A stretch of 64,000 nucleotides of DNA from Cycloclasticus pugetii PS-1 (GTDB lineage Bacteria; Pseudomonadota; Gammaproteobacteria; Methylococcales; Cycloclasticaceae), in NCBI RefSeq assembly GCF_000384415.1, contig NZ_ARVU01000001.1:2294001-2358000 (forward strand). The letters run 5' to 3'. Every line of letters begins with the position of its first letter. The stretch's first letter is position 1. The notes below the pieces were generated by a model. The model made no database searches and had not been told where the DNA came from. It worked only from the letters and a program-made list of their open reading frames with translations. The translations under genes were made by a program, and so were the position numbers. Below are positions 9,311 through 31,160 of the stretch, in pieces.

Positions 9311-9329
9311 ATGATCTGGAGATAACTTT

Positions 9330-10013: not shown

Positions 10014-10026
10014 AACCGTCATACTT

Positions 10027-10084: not shown

Positions 10085-10272
10085 TCTTTCATAAAAAAGC
10101 CTCTTCTCAGCGAAAACCAATATTAGCTCCAAACCCTTTGCGTTTTTGATCAATTGAAGCAGGCAACTTACCCACAACTATACGGTTCGGCAAGCTACCT
10201 GTGCTTAATTTTATTTGAAAGAACTGTGCGTTATAAATAAGCTTATATTGGCTGCAACGATTCTGCTCTCAC

Positions 10273-11448: not shown

Positions 11449-11451
11449 TCG

Positions 11452-12096: not shown

Positions 12097-12197
12097 GGTG
12101 AAATTCCAATCATTAATTTACACCAGCTTGCCGTCTTTATATGACATTAGCATGTCACCCTCATGACCGTTTAGCGAACTGTAATAGCTTTTAATTA

Positions 12198-13061
12198 CTA
12201 TCGAAACGTAGCTTTATGTAACAGCGGCGAACCCATTTTTATACACTCGCCCTGTCTAATGCCTTCGTTTATTACAAATTCGCTGGAGGCAAAAACTAAA
12301 ATAGTTGAGCCATGTTCAAAATAACCCATCTCATCCCCTTTGTTATAAAGGGCTGAGCAAGGCAAGACATTAGGTCCTTTATAGCGAAGATTCAGGGGGG
12401 CTGCTAAACAGTGAAACTGCATGCTAGCCACCAAAATAGCTGCAACGGGCACCAGCACAAGACACTCATCTTTGTGCCCTGTTTTTAACTCTATAAACGC
12501 TCGCTCATTTTTACAAAATAAGTTCTTAATCCGGGTCAGAGCAATTGGGTTTACATTCCATGTGTCACCCGAGATATATGTAACCTTATCTACCTCACAA
12601 TCGATGGGTGCATGAAAACGATGATACATCGTTGAGGTTAGCCTTAACGTTACATAACAGCCATTTTGTAGCCGTTTCTGCAGCGCCTTATCCGGAATTA
12701 AATCGGCAACGTGATAGGGAAAACCCTTCGCCTGGTAGACCACCCCATTATCGATCTTGCCATGACTACCAACAATGCCATCACAAGGGCTAACAACGCC
12801 TCCTTTGTACGTATCTATCGGCCTTACCCCTTCTTTTAGTTGGCGAATAAAGCACTCATGCAATGAATTAAAGCTATGTTTTTTTGCTTCGGAAAAGTCC
12901 AAATCGGGTGAAAAAATACGCCAAATACTGATGGATAAGCTTGTTAGCGTTGGGCTTTGTATCTTGCTGTACCAACCCATTAGGTGAGTGAAAAGTTTAC
13001 GGGGTATACGGTTTGTTAATAAGAAATTTAACCGTTCCATTCGCGTTAGCCTAGAAATCAT
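12198..13061 (-). CDS. psd: Phosphatidylserine decarboxylase
   Basis: About 287 residues. The C-terminal HGST motif (Ser near residue 252) is the self-cleavage site that yields the pyruvoyl cofactor. SPCDG, VTLRLTSTMYHRFHAPI and NER are conserved proenzyme features. The enzyme makes phosphatidylethanolamine at the inner membrane. An upstream TTG at 13070 is possible, but the ATG at 13061 is more plausible. It sits between the PHP-glycosyltransferase and the Mpo1-like gene rather than in the usual housekeeping context, so it may be a second, specialised copy or act on a related serine-containing lipid. The rest of the genome would decide. Confidence 0.88.
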   Translation of the reverse strand: MISRLTRMERLNFLLTNRIPRKLFTHLMGWYSKIQSPTLTSLSISIWRIFSPDLDFSEAKKHSFNSLHECFIRQLKEGVRPIDTYKGGVVSPCDGIVGSHGKIDNGVVYQAKGFPYHVADLIPDKALQKRLQNGCYVTLRLTSTMYHRFHAPIDCEVDKVTYISGDTWNVNPIALTRIKNLFCKNERAFIELKTGHKDECLVLVPVAAILVASMQFHCLAAPLNLRYKGPNVLPCSALYNKGDEMGYFEHGSTILVFASSEFVINEGIRQGECIKMGSPLLHKATFR

Positions 13062-13104
13062 CTGTCTCAAGCCGCACTAACCTTCAACGACATTCACTTT
13101 TTTA

Positions 13105-15780
13105 TTAATCGTTAAGGCCGAGGTTTGTCATAAATTCAGCCATTATTGGTTCCGCTTGATATTGCTGACATCTATTAAGGGCATTTTCTCGCATCGCCGC
13201 TTTATTAACATTGCTTGAAAAAAACTGCTCTATTTGCTCAACCATTTGCTGCTTATCTTCAACCAAAAATCCATTAATTCCATCTTCAATAATATCTTTG
13301 GGGCCTTTTGTATTGTATGCAATCACTGGCATGCCTTGGGTAAATGCTTCTAAAACAACATTTCCAAACGTATCAAAACGTGATGGGAACACTTTTAAAT
13401 CAAGCCCTGCATAAGCAGCTGCCATTGTTTGCTTATCCACCCACCCAAGGAAATTTGCCTCTGGCATTTGAACCTTTAATTCGTCTTCATCTGGCCCAGA
13501 CCCGGCTATCACAAAGCGAATATCTGGCAGCCTTTTTTTCAGTTCTTGATAAATAAACGGCAAATCGAATATGCCCTTTTCTTTGCTTAAGCGGCTGGCA
13601 AAAAGCAGCACCGGTGTTTCACTGTTGGCATCGTTAAACAGCTCTTCTTTTCTCAATGGCATGACTTGCATATCATCAAATTTCCCGACGTGATGTGCAG
13701 TTAAGTGCACCCGACTTTCGTCTAATTGCATATGGTGCCCAGTGAGCCATGACTGATGCTCCGTGTTAAGCACAAAAACACCTTCAAATTGCTTATAAAA
13801 GAAGCGAAGTGCACGCCTAACTCTATCTAATTCATGTTGCGTTAGGTCTGTGGTATTTTTAATAAACTCGACCCAGTCAGTGTGCATAAAAAAGAATGCC
13901 GGCACATTGAACATATGCTTAAGTACCAGTGCAACAATCGCCATAGGGCCTTCAGTTGAACAAATAATTCGGTCATAACCTCCTTCATAAAACACCTTCG
14001 CCACTTCCAGAAAATCAGGCACTCTAAGTTCTTGCTCACCAAACTTCCCAACACTAAACGTTGTTATTGGTTCAACAACATATAAATGCGCCTCTTCTTC
14101 AATATCAGTACTACAAACAAGGAAATCTATTGGCAAATCTGACTGCTGAATTTCCTTAAGTTTGGCTGACAGTGAATTAGAAACACCGTTTTTATCTCTG
14201 AGTGTATCGGTTAAATAAAGCGCACGTTTAGGATGTTGGTTACACCCTAAACGCTCTGAAAAGTCATTAAGGAATGATCTGTTTTGATATAACAATCGTG
14301 TACTAGCGAATGTTGCACTGAAGAGGACCATGCTCACTAACATAGGAAACGATAGATGGTCTAATAGCTCACCAATATTAATATTGCTGATGGAGTCTTG
14401 CTCTGGCTTGTCTTTATAAAACAGCGCCGTTAACTGGCTGGGAATTTCAAACTTACTGGTCAAATCCGCTGTAGAAAAGCTGTTTAACTGCTTACCCGAC
14501 CCAACCGATGACGTCTTTAGCCTCTGTACAATTAATAAACTTAGTTTTTTATAGAGCACCTGAACAGAGCTATTGACTGTATTCACAAAAACATTCGGCG
14601 AGCCGTTTTTACTATCTGCAATACGCGTTAAATGCTCGATACAAAATTTATAATCTTTTTTTACCTTCCAAGACAGCAGTTTGCCTGGTTTTTTACCTTG
14701 CAGCGCCTTATGAATAAATTTAAAAAAATTCTGAGCGTTCTTACTCTTTTTTAGCTCCAACAATAAGTTCGCAATAATAAAGCAGGCTACTTTATCTGAT
14801 GTTTCTCCTCGGTGAAAAAACAGTCTAAGTAAGCCTGGATCTTCTATTTTAACGGCGGCTTGTACAAAGTAGTCCAACAAGGCGATATTCAGTTTTTGAT
14901 TTTCTTCCACATAACCAAATGGCACGACACGGCCCTCAATTAACGCCTCCAAAGCTAACGCAGAAGGTTTTTCTGTTTTCAAGCGCTGCGCTAAGTTTGG
15001 CACATAGAGGTACGATCCACATTCGCCTGCAAACACCCCCATATGATCATCCGAGCCACCCGTTAATACTTTGGGTTTGTCAGGGTCAACAGCAAAGTCA
15101 CCGGGCGTTAAGCCGTGCTTTTCAGCATACATATTAATTTTTTCAGGCGTTAACGTTTTTACCCAGTTTAAGGTTAAAACACTTTGCCATAAATCTCGTT
15201 GACCATTGAGCACTTCATAACGCTGAAATATGACCGCTAATTTCTCGAATAAAGCCTGATCGATATTGTTATCACGGGTATACAAATAAAGCGGGTGAGG
15301 CAATATAACGGGTATATTTTGAGCAGCTGCGAACTTCAAGAATTGGTAAACATTTTCGCGTGTTTTATTAAGCTGTTTTTCTTGCTCTGCATTAAAACCA
15401 TACGCTAACACATGAACAAATAAATTATATTCAGGAAAATAGCAGGTGAATTCAGTACCCACCAGCACATCCTTCCCTTCAGCAATTAACTCCCAACATG
15501 ACCGAGCATTATTATGATTGGTTATCGTCACAACGTCGCAATCATTTTTATGTAAACATTTAACCAAGTTATCCGTCTTAAGCCATGTTTCTGGTAAGCC
15601 AAGGATTCTTCCCCAAAGTTCATCGGGCACATCACTATTGTGATCATGGCAGTGAAAATCAATCTTCAGACAGTTTTCGTAATCCAAGCCTTCTTGTGCT
15701 GTACTCAGGTACTCCCCAAACTCATCTTTTAATGACTGGCGAAAATCACTAATAACCGCATTCGATGTAAAGTCAATCAT
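13105..15780 (-). CDS. PHP-domain phosphoesterase fused to a GT4-type glycosyltransferase
   Basis: About 891 residues. The N-terminal third has the PHP metal-site pattern: H43-x-H45-x-H47 (DFHCHDH), TNHNN, GTEFTCY, PHPLY and GGSDDHMG. The C-terminal third (about 520-891) is a GT-B glycosyltransferase of the GT4 type: TLRDKNGVSNS, SRLSKEKGIFDL, AGSGPDEDEL, and the donor-site segment ending in EAF near residue 811. A helical linker joins them. I chose the ATG at 15780 because it overlaps the preceding stop as ATGA. A combined hydrolase and sugar transferase fits synthesis of a glycolipid or surface glycan; UDP-glucuronate from Ugd is a possible donor. Confidence 0.85.
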   Translation of the reverse strand: MIDFTSNAVISDFRQSLKDEFGEYLSTAQEGLDYENCLKIDFHCHDHNSDVPDELWGRILGLPETWLKTDNLVKCLHKNDCDVVTITNHNNARSCWELIAEGKDVLVGTEFTCYFPEYNLFVHVLAYGFNAEQEKQLNKTRENVYQFLKFAAAQNIPVILPHPLYLYTRDNNIDQALFEKLAVIFQRYEVLNGQRDLWQSVLTLNWVKTLTPEKINMYAEKHGLTPGDFAVDPDKPKVLTGGSDDHMGVFAGECGSYLYVPNLAQRLKTEKPSALALEALIEGRVVPFGYVEENQKLNIALLDYFVQAAVKIEDPGLLRLFFHRGETSDKVACFIIANLLLELKKSKNAQNFFKFIHKALQGKKPGKLLSWKVKKDYKFCIEHLTRIADSKNGSPNVFVNTVNSSVQVLYKKLSLLIVQRLKTSSVGSGKQLNSFSTADLTSKFEIPSQLTALFYKDKPEQDSISNINIGELLDHLSFPMLVSMVLFSATFASTRLLYQNRSFLNDFSERLGCNQHPKRALYLTDTLRDKNGVSNSLSAKLKEIQQSDLPIDFLVCSTDIEEEAHLYVVEPITTFSVGKFGEQELRVPDFLEVAKVFYEGGYDRIICSTEGPMAIVALVLKHMFNVPAFFFMHTDWVEFIKNTTDLTQHELDRVRRALRFFYKQFEGVFVLNTEHQSWLTGHHMQLDESRVHLTAHHVGKFDDMQVMPLRKEELFNDANSETPVLLFASRLSKEKGIFDLPFIYQELKKRLPDIRFVIAGSGPDEDELKVQMPEANFLGWVDKQTMAAAYAGLDLKVFPSRFDTFGNVVLEAFTQGMPVIAYNTKGPKDIIEDGINGFLVEDKQQMVEQIEQFFSSNVNKAAMRENALNRCQQYQAEPIMAEFMTNLGLND

Positions 15781-17456
15781 CGCTTCGCCTCTTTCACTAA
15801 CCTTTTTGCTGATACCGATTTCACCATATCCTTCAACATCCGCCTTTTTATCCATTTATTCGTTAATGCCGAATGCTGCCACCACCAGCCATCTTTTTTC
15901 ATCTTTAGGCCAGCCGATACGAAGTGTTTAATCACCTCAGCGAATTCCTCATCAGTAAAGTTATGGCTCATAATCAGCCTGCCTGTTCCAATCCAGCTAA
16001 GCAGGATGCCTTCCTCCCTGAGGTAATACTGGTACATCCAGTTATAGCGACTCGGTTGGGTATATAAAACAGTGAGAATAGAGCTGAGGTTGACCATTTT
16101 GACTGGCACATTCGCTTCCTTTAATGCTTGGTTCATCTGCTGCACTCTATCGTTCCAGACCTGCTCTAGCACTTGATATGAGCGTTGAATCTCTTCTGTT
16201 TGCAGTGCTTGTAAAAAAGCATCCATACTGGTCATAACGTACGGGTGTGAGTTAAACGTGCCACGCGCAAAAGACACATTCGCCGGCCGATCTTCTTTAA
16301 AACGCTGCATTAAATGATGCCTGCCACATAAAACACCCACCGGTAAACCGCCACCTACGGTCTTACCATAAGTAACCAAATCGGCCTCCACAGCAAAAAA
16401 ACCTTGCGCGCCTTTATGAGAGAGCCTAAACCCGGTAAATACCTCATCAAAAATTAATACAATGGAGCGCTCTTTACACACTTGCTGAAGTTTTTGTAAC
16501 CACTCGCTATACGCTGTCTTATCAAAGGCCGCCGCTCTTTCGCTATTAACCAACATAGCGTCACTTGAGGCATCTGAATTTGGATGCAGCCCTTGCAACG
16601 GATTAACCAACACACAGGCAATGTCACGTCGTGTTCGTAAAATACTCAACGTACGTTCACTCATATCACGTAATGTATAAACATCATTAGTTTTACGTTG
16701 GTTGCCAATGCCTGGCTGAACCCCATCCCACCAGCCATGATAAGCACCACAGAATCTAACTAAATATCGCTTACCGGTATGATAACGAGCCAAGCGTACC
16801 GCTTGCATAACTGCTTCTGTACCAGACATATGAAACGACACCTCATCAAGACCAGATATTCGCTTCAATTCTTCAACATTATTTTTAATTATTGGGTGAT
16901 AAGGCCCCAAGACAGGGCCAAGGTTTTGTGCGTTTTCGAACCCTTTTTTCAAGCAAGACTTATAAAAATCGTAGCCAAAAACATTCACCCCATAGGAACC
17001 GCTCAGGTCAACTCCCCAGCGACCATCGAGATCCTTCAGCATAATGCCTGAGGACTCAGTGACAATTGAGGCCGGTTTTATATGCTGACCAAGGTAGTTA
17101 CGATACGGATAGGGAACCCGGTATAAATTAGTAAAGCGTACATCCGATACACTGTCTTCTATACTGGCATAAAATCCGGTAGATTTTGGCGAATGGCAGG
17201 CTAAGCTTTCACTCAGTTGCTTAAAACCCTCTTTTCGTTGATTAACGACGGCTATTGGTGCGTCATCACTACTAAAAAACACCTCTTCATCGTAAGAAAA
17301 ATAAGGAACCCATTTGGCAATTCGCCTAGCCCATTTTGAATGTCCTCGAACAGAGGGGTGCTTAGCCCTAGAAAGCTTCAGTCGTGTTGAGACTTTTATT
17401 AAAAAGAAAAAGGATAATAGAGCAAGCGCAGTATAGAAGACATCAGTGTCAGGCAT
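15777..17456 (-). CDS. Membrane-anchored class III aminotransferase, GSA-aminomutase-like
   Basis: About 559 residues. Residues 7-21 form a hydrophobic N-terminal anchor, followed by about 80 residues of basic linker and then a PLP fold-type I domain resembling glutamate-1-semialdehyde aminomutase: SGTEAVMQAVRLAR, GAYHGW, IFDEVFTGFR, and the PLP lysine K365 in YGKTVGGG. HemL is about 425 residues and soluble, so the anchor and extra C-terminal basic tail mark a different enzyme. A TTG at 17489 would add 11 residues; neither start has a clear SD. It overlaps the PHP-GT gene by ATGA, so the two probably act together on a membrane substrate. Confidence 0.82.
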   Translation of the reverse strand: MPDTDVFYTALALLSFFFLIKVSTRLKLSRAKHPSVRGHSKWARRIAKWVPYFSYDEEVFFSSDDAPIAVVNQRKEGFKQLSESLACHSPKSTGFYASIEDSVSDVRFTNLYRVPYPYRNYLGQHIKPASIVTESSGIMLKDLDGRWGVDLSGSYGVNVFGYDFYKSCLKKGFENAQNLGPVLGPYHPIIKNNVEELKRISGLDEVSFHMSGTEAVMQAVRLARYHTGKRYLVRFCGAYHGWWDGVQPGIGNQRKTNDVYTLRDMSERTLSILRTRRDIACVLVNPLQGLHPNSDASSDAMLVNSERAAAFDKTAYSEWLQKLQQVCKERSIVLIFDEVFTGFRLSHKGAQGFFAVEADLVTYGKTVGGGLPVGVLCGRHHLMQRFKEDRPANVSFARGTFNSHPYVMTSMDAFLQALQTEEIQRSYQVLEQVWNDRVQQMNQALKEANVPVKMVNLSSILTVLYTQPSRYNWMYQYYLREEGILLSWIGTGRLIMSHNFTDEEFAEVIKHFVSAGLKMKKDGWWWQHSALTNKWIKRRMLKDMVKSVSAKRLVKEAKR

Positions 17457-17567
17457 ATGTGTAATTATTCGCAATAAAATATATCGCAAACATTAACACT
17501 CAAAAATGACAGCCTTGTTTCAGTTAGCTGACAAGCTTCTTACCAAATTACTAATTGCAGATATTTC

Positions 17568-19142
17568 CTAAGCCAAATCCCATGGCACCGACAGACGACC
17601 ATCTTTGAACATGGCTTGCATATCTTTTTTAAGCATTTTCCCCGTCAAGCCTTTTGGCAACTCGTCTACTAGCACGATATGTTTGGGCACTTCAAACTTT
17701 GCCATTCTTGCTTTACTAAATGCAACCATTTCATCGAAATCAAACGCAGCTTTATCTTTGGCAATAATTAACGCGACCACCGCCTCATCCCATTCAGGGT
17801 GTGGCACACCAATAACACCTACTTCAGCAACATTAGGATGTTCATCTAAAACATTTTCAACCATGCTTGGAAAAACATTAGCCGAGCCAGTAATAATAAG
17901 GTTATTTTTACGATCCGTTAGGTAAAGAAAGCCCTCATCGTCTAGATAGCCTAAATCATTAGTTCTGAGCCAACCCTTGTTAAGCACTTCTTTGGTTTGC
18001 TCCTCTAAATCCAAGTAACCACTCATTAAGGTATCAGATTTTAACCAAATTTCACCGCTAGTATTTGGCTCTAAAGCGACGCCATTATCATCACGAATTT
18101 CTATATCAAAATGTAATGCTGGCCGACCACATGAACGAAGAAGATGGTCCTCACCATTTAGACCTCTTTCAGTATCTTCTGGTCTCATAAAACAAATCCA
18201 ACCACCTGTGGTTTCGGTAACACCATACATTTGCATTAAATCACAGTTGAAGGTCTCAGCAGCTTTACGGATTAACTGTGGCGTTGTTGGTGATGAACCA
18301 TAGGTTATTAGTCGCACGGATGGGATTTTAATGTCCGTTTCTTCCATGATTTGAATCATCCGGCGCATCATCAATGGCACCATAATGGTTACCGTTACTT
18401 TCCTCTTATTAATATGTTCAAAGTATTGATCAACATTAAAGTCACCCTCTGGAAGCACTGATGTCATTCCATTAACTGTATTCATTGTTATGAGTACAAA
18501 GGTAATCCAAGCCGATGACGTGGGTGCATACCATACATCATCTGGCGTGAGTCCCATGTTTAACACCGTATTTATCATCGCGTCTTTAAGCGCATGCTGG
18601 GATAAAAGCACGCCTTTTGGCGAACCTGTGGTACCCGATGTATAACTGATGGCTGCCAAGTCATCGTTTTCAAGTACGGGCAGGTCAACCTTACCATCAC
18701 TTTTTGCCAACAACTCTTGATAGTCATAAGGCAGGTTGTGATCTCCACCATAACCAATCAATAAAACACCTTCGGATATCAATTGCTCGGCAACATCGCC
18801 CATCAATGGCACACAGTTAGCTTGTACTAATACTACTTTCGCTTTTGAGTTATGGATGACATACAACATTTCTTTAGGAGAATAGCGCCAGTTAACACCA
18901 ACCCGTGGCGCACCTAATTTTAAGCAGGCATGAAAAGCCTCATAAACTTCAATGTGCTCGTGAGACAAAATAGCGACCACATCGCCCTTGCCAATATTTT
19001 TGGTTTGTAAGGCTTTTGCAAACCGACACGCCCGCTCATTTAGCGTAGCCCAATCGATAGACCTTTCTCCTTCATAAAAAGCTATTCTTTTTGGCATCGC
19101 TTTCGCCGCACGAACCAGGTAATCTCTAACTAATGTTGTCAA
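17568..19142 (-). CDS. Acyl-CoA synthetase (AMP-forming)
   Basis: A 524-residue ANL-superfamily ligase: P-loop YTSGTTGSPKG, YGVTETTG, the hinge YLTDRKNN and the C-terminal catalytic Lys region KGLTGKMLKK. It activates a carboxylic acid to its CoA thioester with ATP in the cytosol. The start is TTG at 19142, supported by GAGGAG eight bases upstream that overlaps the end of the DUF35 gene. It is the last gene of the AlkB/RHO/thiolase-like operon. An aromatic or side-chain carboxylate is a likely substrate; the exact acid is unknown. Confidence 0.9.
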   Translation of the reverse strand: MTTLVRDYLVRAAKAMPKRIAFYEGERSIDWATLNERACRFAKALQTKNIGKGDVVAILSHEHIEVYEAFHACLKLGAPRVGVNWRYSPKEMLYVIHNSKAKVVLVQANCVPLMGDVAEQLISEGVLLIGYGGDHNLPYDYQELLAKSDGKVDLPVLENDDLAAISYTSGTTGSPKGVLLSQHALKDAMINTVLNMGLTPDDVWYAPTSSAWITFVLITMNTVNGMTSVLPEGDFNVDQYFEHINKRKVTVTIMVPLMMRRMIQIMEETDIKIPSVRLITYGSSPTTPQLIRKAAETFNCDLMQMYGVTETTGGWICFMRPEDTERGLNGEDHLLRSCGRPALHFDIEIRDDNGVALEPNTSGEIWLKSDTLMSGYLDLEEQTKEVLNKGWLRTNDLGYLDDEGFLYLTDRKNNLIITGSANVFPSMVENVLDEHPNVAEVGVIGVPHPEWDEAVVALIIAKDKAAFDFDEMVAFSKARMAKFEVPKHIVLVDELPKGLTGKMLKKDMQAMFKDGRLSVPWDLA

Positions 19143-19568
19143 TTAATGCTCCTCCCCATCTAATTTAAAATAAAGCAACTCGTTTTTTTTATCTATTTTT
19201 TTAAAGTGTGCTCTCACCGCTGTACCAACTTGATATGGCTGCCCATCACTCGCTACTATATGGCCCATAACTCGTGGACCTTCCGTTAATTCAACTAAGG
19301 CCACTGTGTAAGGTATTTTGTCATCGTAATAGGGGTGAAAACTACGGTGAAAAACCACGTAACTATATATAACCCCTGTGCCCTTAGCCTCAAACCATTC
19401 GAGTTCATTGCCACCACACTCATCACACACTTTTTGTGCAGGTGGTAGACTGGTTTGGCAGGACGAACAATGCTGAATAAGTAACTTATGTTGCTGCATT
19501 GCCTCATAATAAGGTTTTGCAATATCAACTACCGTTGGCCAAATAATATCTTCTTTTGGATATTCCAT
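19143..19568 (-). CDS. DUF35 / Zn-ribbon OB-fold protein, partner of the thiolase-like protein
   Basis: A 141-residue protein with a rubredoxin-like zinc ribbon, C34-x2-C37 and C48-x2-C51, followed by an acyl-CoA-binding OB fold (TGVIYSYVVFHR, GPRVMGHIV). DUF35 proteins bind thiolase-superfamily partners. Examples are ChsH2 with the retro-aldolase Ltp2 in steroid side-chain cleavage and BbsA with BbsB in toluene catabolism. Here it starts 8 bases after the thiolase-like gene, which strongly supports a complex. It is usually structural and substrate-positioning rather than catalytic. Confidence 0.88.
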   Translation of the reverse strand: MEYPKEDIIWPTVVDIAKPYYEAMQQHKLLIQHCSSCQTSLPPAQKVCDECGGNELEWFEAKGTGVIYSYVVFHRSFHPYYDDKIPYTVALVELTEGPRVMGHIVASDGQPYQVGTAVRAHFKKIDKKNELLYFKLDGEEH

Positions 19569-19576
19569 CGTGCCTC

Positions 19577-20740
19577 CTATCGCCCCATAACTAACGCCGC
19601 ATGGAACTGCATCCGTCCACCATAGCCAGTGACTAACATATTATTGAGTGTATTTAATTGGCGACCTTCTGCACGGTTATGTAATTGCATGACAGCTTCT
19701 GAGACCGCTGTCGCGCCTTGCATATAATAGCCAGATAGATGCCCCCCGCCAGTATTAACGGGTAATTGCCCACCCGGACCAATACCTTCTTCTGCAATAA
19801 ATTGTGCCGCCTTTCCTGGTTCGCAAAAACCGTACATTTCTAAATTTATTAAGGTGGAAATACTAAACGCATCATAAAATTCACAGGCATCAATATCATC
19901 TACCGTGACACCTGCCATCTTAAACGCTGTTTGTGCAGCCATTTTTGCACCCGTTTCTATTTCGGGCTGATAACCACGGCGATTGATATTACCTTTATGA
20001 CCTTGCCCCATTCCATAGATATAAGCGGGGTATTCTTTGGCCGCTTTTGCGGTTTCTACATCACTGACCACCACAGCAATTGCCCCATTGACAGGGTAAG
20101 CACAATCCAGCATCCGTAGTGGTTCAACGAGCCACGGTGATGCATGATGATCTGCCATCGTCATCGGTTTTTTTATTTTAGCTAGCGGATTAAGCCTTGC
20201 CCATTCTCGGTTTGCAATTGCTACTGCTGCAAGGTCATCAGTTGTTCTGTTGTATACCGCTAAATATCGTTGGGCAGCCATTGCATACGCGGCTATCGCG
20301 CTGTAAAAACCATTTGCGACCTCGGTTCCCAATTTACCCATCATCGGCATTGCGATTGCAAAGGATTCTGCGGCAGAACCACCTGGTTGCAAAGGGGTAT
20401 CTGCAAACACACACACCACTTTTTTAGCCAAGCCAGATTGAATCGCCATCGTTGCTTGCTGTAGTGTCTGGACCATTGAGCTACCCTCTGCTTCAACAAC
20501 ATTCAGCAAACTTAAATCCCTAAGGCCAGCATAATCCTGAAGGTCCATCGGCATTGCCGATAAATCTTCAATGGGGCTTTTATTAATCAGCAATCCATCA
20601 ATATCGTGATGCTTTAAGCCTGCATCGCTAATCGCCATACCAATTGCTTCAACTGCTAACTCCCATGAAGCCACCGTGTAATCGCGACGCAACTCAGTCA
20701 TCCCAAGGCCGGTAACGGCTGATAAAGGCTTCCTGCTCAT
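19577..20740 (-). CDS. Thiolase-superfamily protein lacking the catalytic Cys, retro-aldolase candidate
   Basis: A 387-residue lipid-transfer-type thiolase homologue. Where thiolases carry the nucleophilic Cys, residues 82-88 read VEAEGSS. Where they have the GHP histidine, residues 337-339 read GYY. The C-terminal Cys is also missing (TGYGGRM). Loss of these residues with tyrosine in place of the histidine is the signature of Ltp2-type aldolases, which cleave beta-hydroxyacyl-CoA by retro-aldol chemistry together with a DUF35 partner. The adjacent DUF35 and CoA ligase genes fit this. That it is an aldolase is inferred, not shown. Confidence 0.85.
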   Translation of the reverse strand: MSRKPLSAVTGLGMTELRRDYTVASWELAVEAIGMAISDAGLKHHDIDGLLINKSPIEDLSAMPMDLQDYAGLRDLSLLNVVEAEGSSMVQTLQQATMAIQSGLAKKVVCVFADTPLQPGGSAAESFAIAMPMMGKLGTEVANGFYSAIAAYAMAAQRYLAVYNRTTDDLAAVAIANREWARLNPLAKIKKPMTMADHHASPWLVEPLRMLDCAYPVNGAIAVVVSDVETAKAAKEYPAYIYGMGQGHKGNINRRGYQPEIETGAKMAAQTAFKMAGVTVDDIDACEFYDAFSISTLINLEMYGFCEPGKAAQFIAEEGIGPGGQLPVNTGGGHLSGYYMQGATAVSEAVMQLHNRAEGRQLNTLNNMLVTGYGGRMQFHAALVMGR

Positions 20741-20744
20741 CAGT

Positions 20745-21239
20745 CTAAATTAAGAAAGACAGTGTTGGTATAGGTTCAAGCCCATTCACTAAATTAACTT
20801 TCTTTAAGTGTATTTGAAAGCTATCTCCTTTTCGGCTAAGGATATATGTATACCGACCAGACCATATCCTAAAACTATGTACCGATTGAATAGAATATTC
20901 TGGTAAATAGAAATTTGCCTCTACCCTAAACTTGTCATCATTGTCGTTAAAGAACTCGTAATTTGAGATGACACGACGCATACCGGAAATAGGTACTTGG
21001 CTAAATCGGTTACCGGTATTGAGTTGCTTAACCCTTGTTGTTAGCCTCGAATAGTTATCGTATAAATGTGATGCCTTTTTCGCTGGATCGTCACCATCTT
21101 TGCGCGGCACCCAATAAACGGCGTCCTCTGCCCATAATTCATACCATGCCTGGTATTGTCCCTCATCAGCATACTTCGCCTCTTGAATAATAAAGGCTTC
21201 AAGCTCTTTGGTTACCTCAAATGCCACCTGCTTCCCCAT
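20745..21239 (-). CDS. Ring-hydroxylating dioxygenase, beta subunit
   Basis: A 164-residue RHO beta subunit: the N-terminal LEAFIIQEAKYADEGQYQAW helix is typical (EA..LDxxxxxxW in the family), followed by AVYWVPR, the arginine-containing strand MRRVISNYE and FRVEANF. It starts one base after the alpha stop, in the order alpha-beta. It serves as the structural partner of the alpha subunit at 21241-22482. It is distinctly diverged from the other beta subunits in the window. Confidence 0.85.
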   Translation of the reverse strand: MGKQVAFEVTKELEAFIIQEAKYADEGQYQAWYELWAEDAVYWVPRKDGDDPAKKASHLYDNYSRLTTRVKQLNTGNRFSQVPISGMRRVISNYEFFNDNDDKFRVEANFYLPEYSIQSVHSFRIWSGRYTYILSRKGDSFQIHLKKVNLVNGLEPIPTLSFLI

Positions 21240-21240
21240 G

Positions 21241-22482
21241 CTACTTTTCTCCCAACATTACTGAGCGATAGTGGTGCCAAAAACCTCTGTTTGACGTTTC
21301 ATCACTCATTCGCGACTCCTTAACACCATCATCTCTTACCGTTTCTCGATCCATTCCCCTACTTAGATCACACCAAGGTGTACCGGCTTGAAGCGCCTTT
21401 TGCGCGCGTTCAGCTATCGTTGCGTCATCTGCCAATAAAAAAGCAGCAGGGCCTAATGCGCCTTCGCTTTGTCTCAGTAACTTAAAGTTCAACTCTGGCA
21501 CCCCCTTTAAAAACATCGGCGTGCTCCATTGCACACAAGAGTTAACACTGGTCGGCTGGAAAATAACTATATTCATTTCTGCTAAAAATAAATTAGGGAA
21601 AATACAAGCATGTGGCGGCCCATCAAACAACCGCTTGTTGCCTTCTTCTTCGCCATATGCCGCGTGCATTTTTTCAACATATGATTTGGACTTTTCAACC
21701 GTTGAGCCCAGCCAATCAAGTGTATTGACATAGCCTGCGGCAAAATCAATTTCCGTGTGGCCATTGCCCCAGTCTCTGATCACCCCTTGGTTGGTGTCTT
21801 CTCCGCCCACAAATTCGTTATATTGGGAAGGAATAACTTGAACAAATGATTGATGAACATAGTTTACATGGTAACCATCCGTATCATTCTCGGGCAGCAT
21901 TTTCCAGTTTGCATCAAACTTTTGACGCACCCAACCACCTGTTAAATCTACCTCACCTTCTGGAGACAGGTTACAGGCCCGATCTATCAGCTGCTTACCA
22001 TTTCCCAAGTAATCATCAAAACTTATCGTTGGTTCGTTAAAGCTTGCAAAAACAAACCCCCGATAACTATCTGTAATTAATGTCTGTAACCCATGGTCTT
22101 TTTTCTCTTTAGTAAAGCCATCAGGATAAGGTACGTCTAACAAGTCACCATTTAAGCCAAAAACCCAACCATGGTATAGGCAAGAAAAATTGCGTTTATT
22201 GCCTTCCATTTCATTACATAAGTTATTGCCTCGATGCGCACAGCGATTCACCATTACATTCACTGTAGAATCTTTATCCCTGACCATGATCAATGCTGAG
22301 CGGCCTATATCCCTTGCAATAAAGTCGCCTGCTTCCTTGACTTCACTTTCATGCCCGACATAAAACCAGCTATTTTGAAAAATCTTTTCCATTTCATCAG
22401 CATAGATATCTTCTGATGTATATAAAGACCCATGAACCTTGTCCGATTGAATCAGGTGATTGTAATCTATGTTATTTACCAT
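21241..22482 (-). CDS. Ring-hydroxylating dioxygenase, alpha subunit
   Basis: A 413-residue catalytic subunit: Rieske ligands C81-x-H83 (CAHRG) and C101-x2-H104 (CLYHGW), iron site D202-x2-H205-x4-H210 (TDGYHVNYVH). The spacing is that of the naphthalene/biphenyl type. It is followed directly by its beta gene and lies downstream of the AlkB-like gene. With the ligase and aldolase candidate it suggests attack on an aromatic acid or alkyl-substituted aromatic. Electron carriers are not local. Confidence 0.92.
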   Translation of the reverse strand: MVNNIDYNHLIQSDKVHGSLYTSEDIYADEMEKIFQNSWFYVGHESEVKEAGDFIARDIGRSALIMVRDKDSTVNVMVNRCAHRGNNLCNEMEGNKRNFSCLYHGWVFGLNGDLLDVPYPDGFTKEKKDHGLQTLITDSYRGFVFASFNEPTISFDDYLGNGKQLIDRACNLSPEGEVDLTGGWVRQKFDANWKMLPENDTDGYHVNYVHQSFVQVIPSQYNEFVGGEDTNQGVIRDWGNGHTEIDFAAGYVNTLDWLGSTVEKSKSYVEKMHAAYGEEEGNKRLFDGPPHACIFPNLFLAEMNIVIFQPTSVNSCVQWSTPMFLKGVPELNFKLLRQSEGALGPAAFLLADDATIAERAQKALQAGTPWCDLSRGMDRETVRDDGVKESRMSDETSNRGFWHHYRSVMLGEK

Positions 22483-22545
22483 ATTGCTCTCCTATGTATG
22501 CCTTTGCACTGAAAAAGGCCTTTATTCCTTTCTTAATTTGTCGCT

Positions 22546-23748
22546 CTACTTCTCTGCTATAACCGCTCTATCAAGAAAACGCTCGGGCAAGGTATTAGGC
22601 AATGCATAAGGCACGATATCTGCTGTGTCATAAAACTCTTCAATAATTGGATGCATGATTTTTCTCCATAAAGGAGGAAACATCGTTACAAATAAGATAT
22701 TTAGGTAACCTAATGGTAAACGTGGTGCCTTATCCATCACCCTTAATATCTGATAAGGCCGCCCTACATTCGCGTGATGGTCTGAATGCCGATCAATTTG
22801 ACACATAAAAAAGCTACTAATAATCATACTGTCATCCCAAGCATGTTCTGCCCTTACTTTTTCATAGCTACCGTCTTCAAGCTGTTTACGCATCAAACCA
22901 TAGTGTTCTGCAAAGTCTGCTGTGGCTAATAGCAGCCTTGGGAAAAGATATTGCATAATAAATAACGGCAATGAAATCCAGCCAAAAAGATAAACAAGTA
23001 GTGAAAACCATGCGATTTGTGCAATAGTTATTTTTATCATTTTATTATCTAAACTTATCCAACTTGAACCCTTTCGGCCAAGGCGTTCCGCTTCTACTTT
23101 CCATGCAGTAATTGACTTTAATACTGTACTTCTAAGTGCAAACCTCCAAAAATTTTCACCATATGGGGACGTTGCAGGATCTAGTGGGGTCGCTACATGA
23201 ATATGATGATGGAAATTATGATAAACATAGAAATCAGCCATACTAATTGGCGTCATCAAGGCTTGACCCATAAAACGGTCAAACTGATTCCCATGATGAC
23301 ACAGCTCATGCCCTGGAGTTGCACCTGTTGCCGTAACAAAGGCCAAAGAAAGGGCTAAGAAAACCATTTCTGCTGTGCTAAGTGGGTAGTAGCTTACACC
23401 TAACACGGTGAACATTTCCATCGGCGTATTTGTTATCAATGAATAACAAAACAAAGTAATTAGAAACTGTATCGGGACATAGATCCAAAGCATAAAGCGA
23501 AAAAAAGAACTTTCCTCTAATTCTTTTTCCATCTCTTCTGGTGCATTAATAGGATCATCTCCTACAATTGGGTCAAGTATCATACAGATACCAAATACAG
23601 CAAGGGTTAACAAATACCAATACCCCCCACCTAAAAAATGAGCAATAACAGGTGTTGTAGAAAACAACAATATAGGGATTGTGGTATAGCGAGCGACTAT
23701 ACTAACTTTTCTTTTAATACTATCTGGGGCATTCATTTTGGGAAACAT
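22546..23748 (-). CDS. AlkB-family membrane di-iron hydroxylase
   Basis: A 400-residue integral membrane protein with the histidine boxes of alkane and xylene monooxygenases: HELCHH near residue 148, NFHHHIHVATPLDPA near 176, and RHSDHHANVGRPYQ near 318, plus AEHYGL. These coordinate two irons that hydroxylate alkyl groups using rubredoxin or ferredoxin electrons. No rubredoxin gene is nearby. It heads the leftward operon; the SD is GGAGAG. Methyl or alkyl side-chain oxidation before ring attack is a reasonable inference, but n-alkane activity cannot be excluded. Confidence 0.88.
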   Translation of the reverse strand: MFPKMNAPDSIKRKVSIVARYTTIPILLFSTTPVIAHFLGGGYWYLLTLAVFGICMILDPIVGDDPINAPEEMEKELEESSFFRFMLWIYVPIQFLITLFCYSLITNTPMEMFTVLGVSYYPLSTAEMVFLALSLAFVTATGATPGHELCHHGNQFDRFMGQALMTPISMADFYVYHNFHHHIHVATPLDPATSPYGENFWRFALRSTVLKSITAWKVEAERLGRKGSSWISLDNKMIKITIAQIAWFSLLVYLFGWISLPLFIMQYLFPRLLLATADFAEHYGLMRKQLEDGSYEKVRAEHAWDDSMIISSFFMCQIDRHSDHHANVGRPYQILRVMDKAPRLPLGYLNILFVTMFPPLWRKIMHPIIEEFYDTADIVPYALPNTLPERFLDRAVIAEK

Positions 23749-23815
23749 GTTCTCTCCTGGATCTCATTAATTTGCATTTATTTATACAATTGATTATAAC
23801 CAGTTAAACAAACTG

Positions 23816-23891
23816 AACGCTAGTTAGAAATAATCATTTTTTTAATGTAACAATTTTTCTTTAAACAACCTATTGATCTTAAACTAGCGTT
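23816..23891. promoter_or_regulatory. Pair of inverted 10-base operator candidates in divergent promoter
   Basis: AACGCTAGTT at 23816-23825 and its exact reverse complement AACTAGCGTT at 23882-23891 lie in the 197-base gap between the AlkB-like gene (leftward) and the hydrolase gene (rightward). One copy faces each gene: about 68 bases upstream of the first start and 55 upstream of the second. A dimeric regulator controlling both operons is likely. The regulator is not encoded nearby. Confidence 0.5.
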
Positions 23892-23945
23892 GTTAACTAT
23901 CTTTAGAAACACTATAACTTCAAACTTTTAGAAATAAGGAATGCT

Positions 23946-24794
23946 ATGCAAACATCAAACATCCAAACCGGTTCTTTTAATACTTTTTTAAATGAAACAG
24001 GAACCGATAAGGACACCAGTATTTTATTGCTACATGGTTCTGGTCCTGGTGCTAACGCCATGTCAAACTGGCAATATGCACTGCCTTTTCTAGCTGAGAA
24101 CTACCATTGCCTTGCACCAGATATTGCAGGTTTTGGCCTTAGTCAACATGACTGCCCACCCAATGGAACCAGCCACTGGATTGATATTTGGGTGCAGCAA
24201 CAAATAGATTTATTAGATGCTAAAGGGATTGAGCAAACACATATTGTCGGCAATTCCATGGGCGGTGGCGTTACCCTTCATTTACTTAACAGGCACCCTG
24301 AACGCTTTAAAAAAGCAGTTCTTATGGGCCCAGTAGGTGCTCCATTTGCCCCTACCGAAGGCCTCACAAAAGGGTGGGAGTTTTATAAAGACCCTTCCAA
24401 AGAGGCTTTAGAATACTTAATTACTAAATTTCTTTTTGACCCGAGTTTACTTGGCAATGATATCGCTAGCATTGCTGCTCAACGCTTCGATAACGTTATG
24501 AAAGATGAAGTACGCCTTCAGTTTGAAGCCATGTTTAGCGGTGGTACAAAAAAAGGTATTGATGCGTTTGTTTTATCAGACGACGAGTTAAATAATATTT
24601 CCCACCAAATGCTGGTCACCCATGCCCGAGAAGATTTTTTTATTCCTCTGAATAATGCATATCATTTAATAGATAGAATCCCTAATGCGCAATTGCATGT
24701 CTTTGACCATTGCGGCCACTGGGTTCAAATTGAAAAGAAAAAAGCATTTAATAATTTAACTAAACTATTCTTCGACGGCATGTTTGATGACTAA
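23946..24794 (+). CDS. Alpha/beta hydrolase of the meta-cleavage product hydrolase type
   Basis: A 282-residue alpha/beta hydrolase: oxyanion region HGSGPGANAMSNW at residues 30-42, nucleophile Ser104 in GNSMGGG, and the catalytic His in DHCGHW near 262. The GSGPGA-x-W pattern is that of BphD/DmpD-like C-C hydrolases, which cleave the ring-fission product from extradiol dioxygenases. No extradiol gene is adjacent; the nearest is at 53.7 kb. It is divergent from the AlkB/RHO operon with shared operator-like repeats, so coordinated expression is likely. Confidence 0.87.
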   Translation: MQTSNIQTGSFNTFLNETGTDKDTSILLLHGSGPGANAMSNWQYALPFLAENYHCLAPDIAGFGLSQHDCPPNGTSHWIDIWVQQQIDLLDAKGIEQTHIVGNSMGGGVTLHLLNRHPERFKKAVLMGPVGAPFAPTEGLTKGWEFYKDPSKEALEYLITKFLFDPSLLGNDIASIAAQRFDNVMKDEVRLQFEAMFSGGTKKGIDAFVLSDDELNNISHQMLVTHAREDFFIPLNNAYHLIDRIPNAQLHVFDHCGHWVQIEKKKAFNNLTKLFFDGMFDD

Positions 24795-24905: not shown

Positions 24906-26156
24906 TTAAAAGCCCATCATCTCTCGATACCCTTGCCACATTGAACGAATCATTCCTTCCGTGACTAGATGCTTTGCTCCTTCAGGCTCTTTACCATCCA
25001 TCTCTATCACACTAGTGTATTCCCCATCCCGAACTATCGCTTTTTGACATAGCTCTGTTGATTCACCATCTTCCATTGAGATAAGTCCAGCAGGTCCAAT
25101 AAGGTTAAATTGCTTTAAACGAATATTTCTAAGCTCTTCAGTGTCGTCTTTATAACCAAAGTAAGTCCAGACTAACTCAAATTCATCCTTACCTTTTGGT
25201 AAGATCTGACGAAAAGCTAGGGTATTTTGAATTTGCTGCAGCACTAACGAAGGAAACATCGATAATATATCCAAGCTATGTCCGTCTTCAAACTCCTGCT
25301 GGCCTGCTAGTAAAGACTCATCTGCTAATGCATAATTTCCTTGCTGCATCGTTCTAAGGTTCTCTTTCTTAACATCGTCCAGAGCACTTTTCTTTTCCTC
25401 TGAACTCTTAACCCAAATTAAGCAGTGAACTTTATTATTTACGATTGATTCACCTTGTTGAGACGATCGATACAGCCCAAAAGTTGCATGAAAGAGGTGC
25501 AATAAACTTGCATGATAAGGGTCTTTGGTATTTTCAGCGTAGAACTTCCAATTCCCTTTAATATATTGCCGAGTTGTACCGAGTATTTCTATCGGCTTAT
25601 TTAGCAGTCGACGCATATGGTAGCTAACATCATCGCCCATATATTCTTCAATATCCGGCGTATCATCACTAAAGGTACCAAAAATCGCACCATGGTAATT
25701 AACCACACGGACCTTACGTAGACCGTGCTTTTTCTTATCAAAGTCTTTTGGCATGCCACCTTTGCCAGCGAGTCCACGCTGGAAGGGGACCCCATGAAGG
25801 TCACCCTTCGCATCATAAGCCCATTGGTGATATACGCAGGTGTAAACACCATCTTCAGACTTACCGTGACGCTCTCGACAAATCTCAGCGCCACGGTGAG
25901 CACAACGGTTAACCCAAGCATAGATTTCATTATCTTGCCCACGGGTAACCACAACAGGGGTATCACCAATATAGGTTGATTTGAAGCTACCTTTTTCTGG
26001 CAACTCTGCGTCAGCGGCTAAAAAATTCCACGTTGGGCCATTATAAATTTTCTCCTGCTCAAGGTCGTAAACTTCTTGATTATTAAACACCCAATAAGGC
26101 ACCGCCGTACAACCTGCATCTGCAGGCCACTTTAAACGATCAAGCATACTTCTCAT
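24906..26156 (-). CDS. RHO alpha subunit without adjacent beta gene, mosaic paralogue of 60246-61499
   Basis: A 416-residue Rieske oxygenase: C85-x-H87 and C107-x2-H110 with YHQW in place of the usual YHGW, and iron site D212-x2-H215-x4-H220 (KDPYHASLLH). It resembles salicylate/anthranilate-type alpha subunits. Residues 39-206 and a second block around 300-364 are almost identical to the paralogue 35 kb away even at DNA level; the segment between has diverged. It follows the RND gene by 63 bases, has the SD AAAGGAG and lacks its own beta gene. It may borrow the beta subunit encoded at 59749-60234. Confidence 0.92.
   Translation of the reverse strand: MRSMLDRLKWPADAGCTAVPYWVFNNQEVYDLEQEKIYNGPTWNFLAADAELPEKGSFKSTYIGDTPVVVTRGQDNEIYAWVNRCAHRGAEICRERHGKSEDGVYTCVYHQWAYDAKGDLHGVPFQRGLAGKGGMPKDFDKKKHGLRKVRVVNYHGAIFGTFSDDTPDIEEYMGDDVSYHMRRLLNKPIEILGTTRQYIKGNWKFYAENTKDPYHASLLHLFHATFGLYRSSQQGESIVNNKVHCLIWVKSSEEKKSALDDVKKENLRTMQQGNYALADESLLAGQQEFEDGHSLDILSMFPSLVLQQIQNTLAFRQILPKGKDEFELVWTYFGYKDDTEELRNIRLKQFNLIGPAGLISMEDGESTELCQKAIVRDGEYTSVIEMDGKEPEGAKHLVTEGMIRSMWQGYREMMGF
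25066..25256. repeat. Second high-identity tract shared with 61149-61339 (inverted)
   Basis: 191 bases matching the paralogous alpha gene in opposite orientation with about 9 mismatches by hand count. It encodes the C-terminal beta-sheet part around FRQILPKGKDEF. Confidence 0.85.
25539..26042. repeat. High-identity tract shared with 60363-60866 (inverted)
   Basis: 504 bases with about 8 mismatches to the other alpha gene by hand count, including long stretches with no synonymous change. Identity falls sharply at both ends. It encodes the Rieske domain and the lead-in to the iron site. Confidence 0.9.
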
Positions 26157-26219: not shown

Positions 26220-28589
26220 TTAGTTACTTTCTTGCACCGTTCCTTCTCTGTCTTTAAGCGGATAAATGAAACTTGCCAGCGCCGGAATAAGAATAATAGC
26301 GCCCAACATATTCACGAAGAACATATACGCTAACAAGATACCCATATCTGCCTGAAACTTAAGATCTGAGAAGTACCAAGTTGCCACACCAATCGTCATC
26401 GTCACTGATGTAAAGACAACTCCTGTTCCCACCTCTTTTAACGATTCATAATACGATTTCTGTAACGACTCTCCCATTGTCATGTGAGCCCTCATCCGTG
26501 CGAACAAATAGATGCCGTAATCAACCCCTACGCCAACACCCATTGCTAATACAGGCAAGGTAGATACTTTCAAACCTATCCCTAAATAAACCATGACAAC
26601 GTTTGCTAAATAAGCAACTAGAGCCAAGGGTACAACAATACATATTGTTGCTCTGATAGACATAAATGTTACAAAGCAGAAAATACCCACTGCCGCAAAC
26701 AAAATAAGTTCTATTCGAGCTTGCGCTTTAGCCACAATTTCATTTGTTGCCGCCATGATGCCTGCATTACCCATCGCAGGTACAAAGTCGACATGCTCAT
26801 TTGTATTGAGCTCTCTGAAATTTTTGACTGCATCCATTACACGGTCTAATGTTTGCGCTCGATGGTCTGTAAGATAAATTGTTACCGGCATAATCGTACA
26901 ATCATTTGAAAATAATGCCTGAGACATCTCTACTCTGTAGATATTAGCCGATATCATTTTCTCATTCCGTGGGATACCCAAAAACTTAGGGTTCGCTTCG
27001 TAGTTACCAATATTACGCTCACGAATCACTTGAGACAGAGCCTTAACAGACTGCACGCCTTCAACATTTTGCATCTGCCAAACAAAGTCATCGATCGTTT
27101 GCATAATACTGAAATTAACACACGAACCTTTTTGATCGGCTTTTGCTAAGATCACCAATTCATCCAAGCCGACAGAAAAATTTTCCTGTATCGCATTAGC
27201 ATCCAAATTATATTGAGAATCTGGCCAGAACTCCGGTGCACCTGCTTCAACATCGCCGACAATCAATTGATCTTGAACTGATAAAGTGTAAACACTCAGG
27301 CCAAAGGCAAACACCAATACAATTGTTGCATACCGTCTATCTGTTAACTTTGAGAGCATTGCCCAAAAAGAATGGTCAGCGCCTTTAATACTTCCTTCAG
27401 CCCTTTTTAATTCCTTATCAGTCAATTTAATATACGACAATAAAATAGGCAGCATGATTTTATTGGTTAACAGCATCACCGCTACCCCAATACTAGCGAT
27501 TATTCCAAGCTCTCTAATGATAGGAATATCAATCAAGACAATAACGCCAAAACCTACTGCATCTGAAACTAGTGCTGTAGCACCCGGTATAAATAACTTA
27601 TAAAAAGCATGACGTGCCGCACCGACCGAATCTTCGCCATTAACAACGCCAATCCGCCAAACATTGGTCATTTGAATTGCATGACTAACGCCGATAGCTA
27701 GAATTAAAAACGGAACCAGTATTGACATAGGGTCAACACCGTAACCTAATATTTTGACCAACCCCAGCTGCCAACTGACAGAAATCAATGCTGTCGCAAT
27801 CACTGCCAGCGCCAGTTTCATTGAGCCTGCAAAAAAGTGTAGCAAAATAAAGGTAATGATTAATGTAATAACAAAAAAGCTAATTACGCCTTCTGCACCA
27901 TCAATCACATCGCCTATGAATGGCGCAAAACCAATAATATGAATAGCGGTTTCTTCTGTTTCATAAGTCGCTCTGATTTTGTCTAATTTTTCAGCAAACA
28001 ACTCATAGTCAATTTTTTCCTTTGTAATCGGATCAACTTCGACCAAATCGGCAATCACCAAAGCGCCCGATAGATCCTTCGCAACTGTTTTACCTATTTC
28101 AGAAGACTTAAAAAGATTACTTTTAACCTCTTCAATACGTTCAGGTGTTGCAATAAAGTCGGCGGCTACGATTCTTGAGCCCGTAAACCCTTCTTCACTA
28201 ACAGCGACATAGTTAACGTTTGGAGTAAACAATGAGGTTACGGTCCGCGCGTCAATACCATCCATCACTAAGACTTCAGACGTGATGCCTTCCAACACGG
28301 TAAAAAACTCGGGCGTAAACATCTCACCATCTTTATTCTCTACAAAAATGGTAATACGGTTTGCGCCACCAAATTCATCACGGTAATTTGTGAAGGTTTT
28401 CATGTACGGGTGTGACAAGGGGATAGCCTTATCAAACCCTGGAGACAACTGTTGATTGAACCCTTGATAGGATAAAAATACTGTTACCAATAGACCAAGA
28501 GTTAAGAATAATAAACGATGCTTCAATAAAGCATCTGCCATAAAATCAGAAATATTATGCACTAAGGTTGATTCATGTTTAATACTCAT
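26220..28589 (-). CDS. RND superfamily (MMPL-type) transporter
   Basis: A 789-residue inner-membrane protein with an N-terminal span, a large periplasmic loop, a block of membrane segments, a second loop and a second block, the usual RND duplication. Segments such as DPMSILVPFLILAIGVSHAIQ and GVGVGVDYGIYLFAR carry the Asp residues of transmembrane segments 4 and 10 used for proton coupling. Its start overlaps the stop of the YCF48-like gene (TAATG). With DUF1302 and DUF1329 it forms a module often found beside hydrocarbon, steroid or terpene catabolism. Movement of hydrophobic molecules is assumed; the direction is unknown. Confidence 0.9.
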   Translation of the reverse strand: MSIKHESTLVHNISDFMADALLKHRLLFLTLGLLVTVFLSYQGFNQQLSPGFDKAIPLSHPYMKTFTNYRDEFGGANRITIFVENKDGEMFTPEFFTVLEGITSEVLVMDGIDARTVTSLFTPNVNYVAVSEEGFTGSRIVAADFIATPERIEEVKSNLFKSSEIGKTVAKDLSGALVIADLVEVDPITKEKIDYELFAEKLDKIRATYETEETAIHIIGFAPFIGDVIDGAEGVISFFVITLIITFILLHFFAGSMKLALAVIATALISVSWQLGLVKILGYGVDPMSILVPFLILAIGVSHAIQMTNVWRIGVVNGEDSVGAARHAFYKLFIPGATALVSDAVGFGVIVLIDIPIIRELGIIASIGVAVMLLTNKIMLPILLSYIKLTDKELKRAEGSIKGADHSFWAMLSKLTDRRYATIVLVFAFGLSVYTLSVQDQLIVGDVEAGAPEFWPDSQYNLDANAIQENFSVGLDELVILAKADQKGSCVNFSIMQTIDDFVWQMQNVEGVQSVKALSQVIRERNIGNYEANPKFLGIPRNEKMISANIYRVEMSQALFSNDCTIMPVTIYLTDHRAQTLDRVMDAVKNFRELNTNEHVDFVPAMGNAGIMAATNEIVAKAQARIELILFAAVGIFCFVTFMSIRATICIVVPLALVAYLANVVMVYLGIGLKVSTLPVLAMGVGVGVDYGIYLFARMRAHMTMGESLQKSYYESLKEVGTGVVFTSVTMTIGVATWYFSDLKFQADMGILLAYMFFVNMLGAIILIPALASFIYPLKDREGTVQESN

Positions 28590-29557: not shown

Positions 29558-29584
29558 AATTATTACCTATAAAATTCAAAAAAA

Positions 29585-29613
29585 GACCGAAGCTAAACTG
29601 TCTAGCCTCGGTC
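29585..29613 (-). terminator. Intra-operon hairpin between DUF1329 and YCF48-like genes
   Basis: An 11-base stem with one G-U-type mismatch (29585-29595 with 29603-29613), 7-base loop. Reading leftward, it is followed by a U-rich stretch from the A-run at 29574-29584. It probably attenuates transcription so that the two outer genes are made in excess over the YCF48/RND pair. Confidence 0.65.
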
Positions 29614-29646
29614 CTAATCTAATCATTTAAAACAACGCTGCGCTTC

Positions 29647-31107: not shown

Positions 31108-31117
31108 CCTATCTCCT

Positions 31118-31141: not shown

Positions 31142-31160
31142 TTATTTTAATTAACAATAT

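Follow-up and report, generated by a model that had tools for sequence, protein, structure and literature searches.

The closest described counterpart of the operon considered here, six minus-strand genes at 17568-23748 of a 64,000-nucleotide stretch (the window) of a Cycloclasticus genome, is ipfABDEF, known from Sphingomonas Ibu-2 and from plasmid pIBU218 of Rhizorhabdus wittichii MPO218. In the ipf route, which is partly supported by mutants, coenzyme A (CoA) ligation is followed by dioxygenation and by a retro-aldol cleavage that yields propionyl-CoA and 4-isobutylcatechol, and an insertion in ipfD left strain MPO218 unable to grow on ibuprofen (PMC9195938). 2-Phenylpropionic, tolylacetic, and 2-tolylpropionic acids are named as further substrates of the Ipf enzymes (PMC6063337, PMC9195938). 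Zur et al. 2018 list C. zancles 78-ME, Cycloclasticus sp. DSM 27168, C. pugetii PS-1, and Cycloclasticus spp. P1 and PY97M as carriers of ipfABDEF clusters, along with five further genomes including TR3.2, and conclude from this that they can degrade ibuprofen (PMC6063337). A 2023 review repeats the claim for Cycloclasticus and calls the use of ibuprofen by these strains unknown (PMC10004696). These clusters very probably represent the same operon in sister strains. The five-gene set in Cycloclasticus has therefore been in print since 2018 and is not new; the part for which no published report was found is the sixth gene, which encodes a hydroxylase from a sister clade of AlkB and stands in front of five genes whose chemistry is known. 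The passages of the 2018 review devoted to the Cycloclasticus clusters name ibuprofen as the proposed substrate and are silent on such a gene.

A preliminary description of this DNA, made from the letters alone, had reported six tightly spaced genes on one strand, and six open reading frames (ORFs) do fill the interval exactly, with gaps of 63, 1, 4, 8, and 0 bases in the order from the AlkB-like gene to the ligase gene. Its calls of an AlkB-like hydroxylase, a ring-hydroxylating oxygenase (RHO), an aldolase candidate, and a CoA ligase agree with Pfam, homology, and active-site letters. Its statement that the combination is not a described pathway fails for the five ipf-type genes, whose pathway (PMC9195938) and presence in Cycloclasticus (PMC6063337) are published, and stands for the linkage of the AlkB-like gene, of which no published report was found in a search confined to open-licence PMC literature. 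On balance, we regard it as probable that the operon joins an ipf-type module for side-chain removal to an AlkB-type hydroxylase placed in front, and that it would convert alkylarenes to catechols by the steps proposed below.

Five genes of the ipfABDEF type

A tblastn search of plasmids with the RHO alpha subunit and the thiolase-fold protein returned, among others, pIBU218, on which genes for an RHO alpha subunit, an RHO beta subunit, a thiolase-fold protein (annotated as hypothetical and matched by the search), an OB-fold protein, and an AMP-binding protein follow one another. The ipf names were given to these genes from the published order, not from the sequence record. By BLASTP, the five window genes correspond to ipfA-B-D-E-F one-to-one and collinearly at 31-53% identity: 53% over 408 residues for RHO alpha and IpfA, 41% over 162 for RHO beta and IpfB, 48% over 380 for the aldolase and IpfD, 31% over 80 for the DUF35 protein and IpfE, and 44% over 523 for the ligase and IpfF. 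The same order, surveyed in 41 loci (the detailed locus comparison covered 20 chosen from 75), recurs in distant gammaproteobacteria and on pIBU218. In a 25-row tree, the aldolase, IpfD, and 15 other ipf-linked rows lie on one side of a branch supported at 99/96, and a 19-row RHO alpha tree that leaves out two long-branched window oxygenases (w_RHO3_4323 and w_62449) unites the window protein and IpfA in one clade (96/97). Judged from sequence, the five genes are of the ipfABDEF type; given the one-to-one order, the clades, and the shared active site, their biochemistry is therefore largely described. Two differences from pIBU218 concern gene content and a metal site: the plasmid carries no AlkB-like gene in the stretch examined, and its IpfE (L042:12115-12513) has lost the Cys4 zinc ribbon, whereas the window DUF35 protein keeps C-x2-C-x10-C-x2-C, a ribbon also kept in the DUF35 partners of the other Cycloclasticus and of Immundisolibacterales-type genomes.

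The aldolase alignment comprises 25 rows, 17 of them ipf-linked. At the thiolase nucleophile region, all 17 ipf-linked rows carry E-G-S/A (E-G-S in the window) and no cysteine; thiolase activity of the Claisen type was accordingly rejected for this protein, which has Glu-Gly-Ser in place of a nucleophilic cysteine. The same 17 rows all share YDAF and GG[HQ]LS[GS][YF]Y, one of them (CycG017) reading LSSYY. In the steroid aldolases, which likewise have DUF35 partners (Ltp2-ChsH2 and Sal-Shy), catalysis relies on Tyr294 (of YDHF) and Tyr344 in the case of TcLtp2 and on Tyr302 and Cys304 (of YDCY) in that of CtSal (PMC12329534). A phmmer alignment to 6ok1 places the Ltp2 tyrosine pair on the Tyr of YDAF and on the second Tyr of SGYYMQG in the window protein, which thus resembles these enzymes in fold, partner gene, and the Ltp2 tyrosines and differs from them in having YDAF instead of YDHF or YDCY and a glutamate at the former nucleophile region. 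An AlphaFold model (8 sequences; mean pLDDT 63.7, pTM 0.72) has as its nearest chains Ltp2 6ok1 (Z 39.7, root-mean-square deviation 3.0, 361 residues aligned) and Sal 9myr (Z 39.0, 3.0, 370 aligned), with Ltp2, Sal, TbSLP, and 6esq tied within one Z unit; the model being of middling quality, this ranking is taken to support the fold alone.

The hydroxylase and its linkage to the module

XylM, the xylene monooxygenase of the TOL upper pathway, belongs to the same superfamily as the window hydroxylase and hydroxylates alkyl-aromatics. The only PDB matches of the window protein are two structures of the alkane 1-monooxygenase AlkB, 8f6t (4.2e-65) and 8sbb (1.7e-62), with which about 330 residues align, and its histidine boxes HELCHH, HNFHHH, AEHYGL, and RHSDHH follow the AlkB-type consensus. 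The other five gene products were recognized by Pfam and NCBIfam profiles; the hydroxylase was recognized by Pfam (FA_desaturase) and had no NCBIfam match. In a 25-row tree, from which the XylM-like row L086 was left out and in which long branches were flagged for several rows, the hydroxylase groups in one clade (100/98) with nine copies from Cycloclasticus and those of L036 and L037; rubredoxin-type AlkB (99/98) is the adjacent clade, and XylM (100/99) stands apart. It thus lies outside the rubredoxin-linked AlkB clade, in a sister clade. The tree rules out a XylM-type identity for it, though two other paralogs of the same genome fall on the XylM side. One XylM-side paralog, in locus L069 of this genome (C1:1998000-2016000), shares the stretch 6090-14400 with an extradiol dioxygenase, an amidohydrolase, two zinc alcohol dehydrogenases, and a TonB receptor, in what looks like a second, separate alkyl-aromatic cluster. 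Only five of 369 sampled Gammaproteobacteria exceed 480 bits to the window hydroxylase (two Cycloclasticus and three of another family), the next best reaching 273.

Canonical AlkB uses rubredoxin (PMC11409719), and rubredoxin genes adjoin AlkB on several of the plasmids examined. In contrast, no rubredoxin was detected in the window genome at E 0.001 by a search that was positive in 7 of 14 control genomes; the same holds for 16 of the 18 genomes of the genus, the window genome included, and for G062 and G064. A 2Fe-2S reductase chain may instead supply the hydroxylase, perhaps through the 340-residue AntC/BenC/MmoC-like reductase at the edge of the polycyclic aromatic hydrocarbon (PAH) cluster that occupies 49859-63639 of the window. 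In length, this reductase and the 298-residue extradiol dioxygenase of the cluster agree with ferR and rcd as published for Cycloclasticus P1, in which FerR is said to serve every PAH pathway (PMC8547461).

The AlkB-like gene lies immediately upstream of the RHO alpha gene on the same strand in all ten readable Cycloclasticus loci (the window, L034, and L060-L067; the contigs of L065, L066, and L067 break off within the aldolase gene, placing the DUF35 and ligase genes beyond view). Taken with the recurrence of the module order in distant gammaproteobacteria and on pIBU218, this linkage places the operon far beyond chance. In seven of the ten loci, about 550 bases separate the two genes; the window, L034, and L067 lack this wide gap. 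A hidden rubredoxin gene was considered for this gap and discarded: the three loci inspected (L060:12369-12857, minus; L063:12118-12582, minus; L062:7098-7562, plus) hold a gene for a PEMT/ICMT-like membrane protein of 154-162 residues from a methyltransferase family, an assignment checked by Pfam on one of them. Across the genus, 11 of 18 genomes have a gene of the AlkB clade (at least 690 bits) and 10 have an aldolase ortholog, at 69-100% identity and incomplete in three; both are present in 10, neither in 7, and the AlkB-like gene alone in 1 (Fisher p 2.5e-4, uncorrected for relatedness). In this lone mismatch, G003, a contig starts 170 bases from the AlkB-like gene, on the side that the remainder of the operon would occupy. 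Outside the genus, the aldolase recurs at 54-57% identity in six of eight genomes of the Immundisolibacterales-type order that contains G062, and the module order is found in L036, L037, L118, L119, L120, and also L038, where the start of the contig truncates RHO alpha. Three Immundisolibacterales-type genomes carry a divergently linked AlkB-like gene, which in L036 and L037 adjoins the module and in L121 an incomplete RHO alpha gene. In L036 and L121, an extradiol dioxygenase gene intervenes between the hydroxylase and RHO alpha genes; L036 and L037 have a gene for a zinc-dependent alcohol dehydrogenase downstream.

Proposed route and competing explanations

In the route we propose, the AlkB-like enzyme would hydroxylate the end of an alkyl chain of at least two carbons on an aromatic ring, with electrons presumably arriving from the 2Fe-2S reductase chain rather than from rubredoxin. 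Dehydrogenases encoded elsewhere, together with β-oxidation in the case of longer chains, would then yield an arylacetic or 2-arylpropionic acid. By homology to ipfABDEF, the ligase is predicted to form the CoA thioester of this acid, the RHO to set a cis-diol on the chain-bearing ring carbon and its neighbor, and the aldolase-DUF35 pair to split the chain off the ring in a retro-aldol reaction that yields acetyl-CoA or propionyl-CoA along with a catechol, which extradiol cleavage and then the adjacent hydrolase would carry on. Alkylated aromatics, the substrates favored by the preliminary description, remain the most coherent class. The methylnaphthalenes named there should fit less well than ethyl, isopropyl, and even-numbered longer chains, since a methyl group would end as a benzoate, to which the retro-aldol step does not apply. 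PaaA/C, which mark the usual phenylacetyl-CoA route, were undetected in all 18 genomes of the genus, and for this reason the module may replace that route there. A PrpD-type gene, sought as a sign of propionyl-CoA use, is present in 12 of 18 genomes and is uninformative.

Several observations weigh against the proposed route. The operon itself encodes neither an alcohol nor an aldehyde dehydrogenase. The search for PaaA/C was also silent in an E. coli control genome, so that their absence from the genus counts for less. With 21 rows, the two long-branched oxygenases among them, the RHO alpha tree does not recover a monophyletic ipf group, two changes being needed, and the oxyanion-hole histidine of Ltp2 (in YDHF) is an alanine in both the window aldolase and IpfD. 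Rubredoxin is present in G007 and G014 of the genus as well as in G061 and G063; the rubredoxin gene of G014 adjoins a different member of the AlkB family (G014:C41, 233 bits). Finally, the 20 kb examined in each of L118, L119, and L120 contain the module and lack an AlkB-like gene, and the two AlkB-clade genes of G329 lie far from its module; the link between hydroxylase and module is hence not obligatory. The last two arrangements also favor an explanation in which the five genes strip side chains as in ipf while the AlkB-like enzyme has another substrate, e.g., alkanes or cycloalkanes, and is merely co-regulated. Four plasmids examined likewise carry the module without a linked AlkB-like gene, and the AlkB-clade genes of G329 have unrelated neighbors such as those for a sulfate permease and an aldehyde dehydrogenase. 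However, a separate role is disfavored by the linkage in ten of ten loci from Cycloclasticus and in three of a different, divergent layout from Immundisolibacterales-type genomes, as well as by the co-occurrence of hydroxylase and aldolase across the genus, and we consider it unlikely, though deserving of serious attention.

The view that the operon is a pathway for ibuprofen, as the 2018 review proposed for Cycloclasticus, draws on the ipfABDEF homology and on the published proposal (PMC6063337, PMC10004696). It appears very improbable, because the same arrangement extends throughout the genus and the five-gene module also into Immundisolibacterales-type genomes, PAH genes are nearby, identity to pIBU218 is merely 31-53%, and a recent drug would be ill-suited as the substrate of a genus-wide operon. 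A side-chain pathway for terpenoids, steranes, or resin acids, i.e., a cluster like steroid Ltp2/Sal or like dit, would account for Ltp2-DUF35 and Sal-DUF35 being the nearest characterized solved structures and would recall ditF, which encodes a putative sterol-carrier-like protein required for growth on resin acids. Against this, the aldolase bears the IpfD signature YDAF and not the YDHF of Ltp2 or the YDCY of Sal, and the operon contains no MaoC hydratase, so that, judged against Ltp2 and Sal, we hold such a pathway to be improbable. The comparison of sequences suggests that the side-chain chemistry serves alkyl aromatics of the oil type rather than drug degradation. The larger claim is that the conversion of alkylarenes to catechol and acetyl- or propionyl-CoA, by way of a rubredoxin-independent AlkB clade, dioxygenation at the ring carbon carrying the chain, and retro-aldol cleavage, is a complete undescribed hydrocarbon pathway and the old natural role of the ibuprofen enzymes, "ibuprofen-CoA dioxygenase" reads from oil-fed marine samples (as in PMC4656828) being oil genes and no sign of drug pollution; we put it forward tentatively, as possible and somewhat short of probable.

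Genomic setting and wider meaning

Features of the operon, its divergent neighbor, and the possible electron donor in the window
Feature	Position	Strand	Evidence
AlkB-like membrane di-iron hydroxylase, 400 aa	22546-23748	-	Pfam FA_desaturase 7.9e-27; PDB match 8f6t; His boxes; tree
RHO alpha, IpfA-type	21241-22482	-	Pfam Rieske and Ring_hydroxyl_A; Rieske motif; D-x2-H-x4-H iron site; 53% to IpfA
RHO beta, IpfB-type	20745-21239	-	Pfam Ring_hydroxyl_B 1.3e-24; 41% to IpfB
SCP2-thiolase-fold retro-aldolase candidate, IpfD-type	19577-20740	-	Pfam Thiolase_C_1 9e-38; 48% to IpfD
DUF35 zinc-ribbon/OB (ChsH2-type) partner, IpfE position	19143-19568	-	Pfam OB_ChsH2_C 5.8e-19; PDB 6ok1_B ChsH2(DUF35) 9.3e-21
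Acyl-CoA ligase, IpfF-type	17568-19142	-	Pfam AMP-binding 1.7e-75; 44% to IpfF
Divergent intergenic region, presumed promoters	23749-23945	.	197 bases
Alpha/beta hydrolase, meta-cleavage-product type, divergent neighbor	23946-24794	+	Best to HsaD/BphD models, scores below cut-off
Possible electron donor, AntC/BenC/MmoC-like reductase, 340 aa	49859-50881	-	NCBIfam hits below cut-off

The window genome is a single contig of 2,383,924 bases, and the closest named relatives of its aldolase gene, at 84-96% identity, are found in uncultured Cycloclasticus genomes. The ligase gene starts with TTG, immediately 3′ of a GGAGG-like site. A hydrolase gene of the type listed in the table adjoins the AlkB-like gene divergently in nine of the ten Cycloclasticus loci. 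The intergenic region between the two contains a perfect 10-bp inverted repeat (AACGCTAGTT/AACTAGCGTT), which was rejected as a conserved operator since the pair is not kept in eight related intergenic regions, one half-site being present in L034 and none in the other seven. A promoter and terminator scan returned sites at about the level of shuffled sequence (14 versus 18.4 shuffled; 7 versus 5.8 shuffled). Past the ligase gene, after 78 bases, comes an ORF (15777-17489) for a 570-residue protein of the class-III aminotransferase fold, resembling glutamate-semialdehyde aminomutase from residue 128 and overlapping a glycosyltransferase ORF at 13105-15855. On the other side, a second RHO alpha gene (24906-26156), with no beta subunit detected directly adjoining it, is followed at 26220-32861 by MMPL, BNR/YCF48-like, DUF1329, and DUF1302 genes, which may together serve the uptake of hydrophobic substrates; those for MMPL, BNR, and DUF1329 accompany the operon in L034, L060, L063, and L067 as well. 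This second RHO alpha and those at 56574-57827 and 60246-61499 are AndAc-like and belong to one clade.

In a marine oil microcosm, an "ibuprofen-CoA dioxygenase" was identified, and bilge water or urban run-off was suggested as the source of ibuprofen (PMC4656828). The linkage of hydroxylase and module suggests an alternative reading of this enzyme.

Alkylated aromatics make up a large share of crude oil. If the proposed route is correct, a major marine oil degrader would possess a side-chain-first route for these compounds, and a possible origin of ibuprofen catabolism would be explained. It would also call for caution in taking ipf-like genes in oil metagenomes for markers of drug pollution, and the hydroxylase would offer a relative of AlkB with which to ask which electron donor takes the place of rubredoxin.

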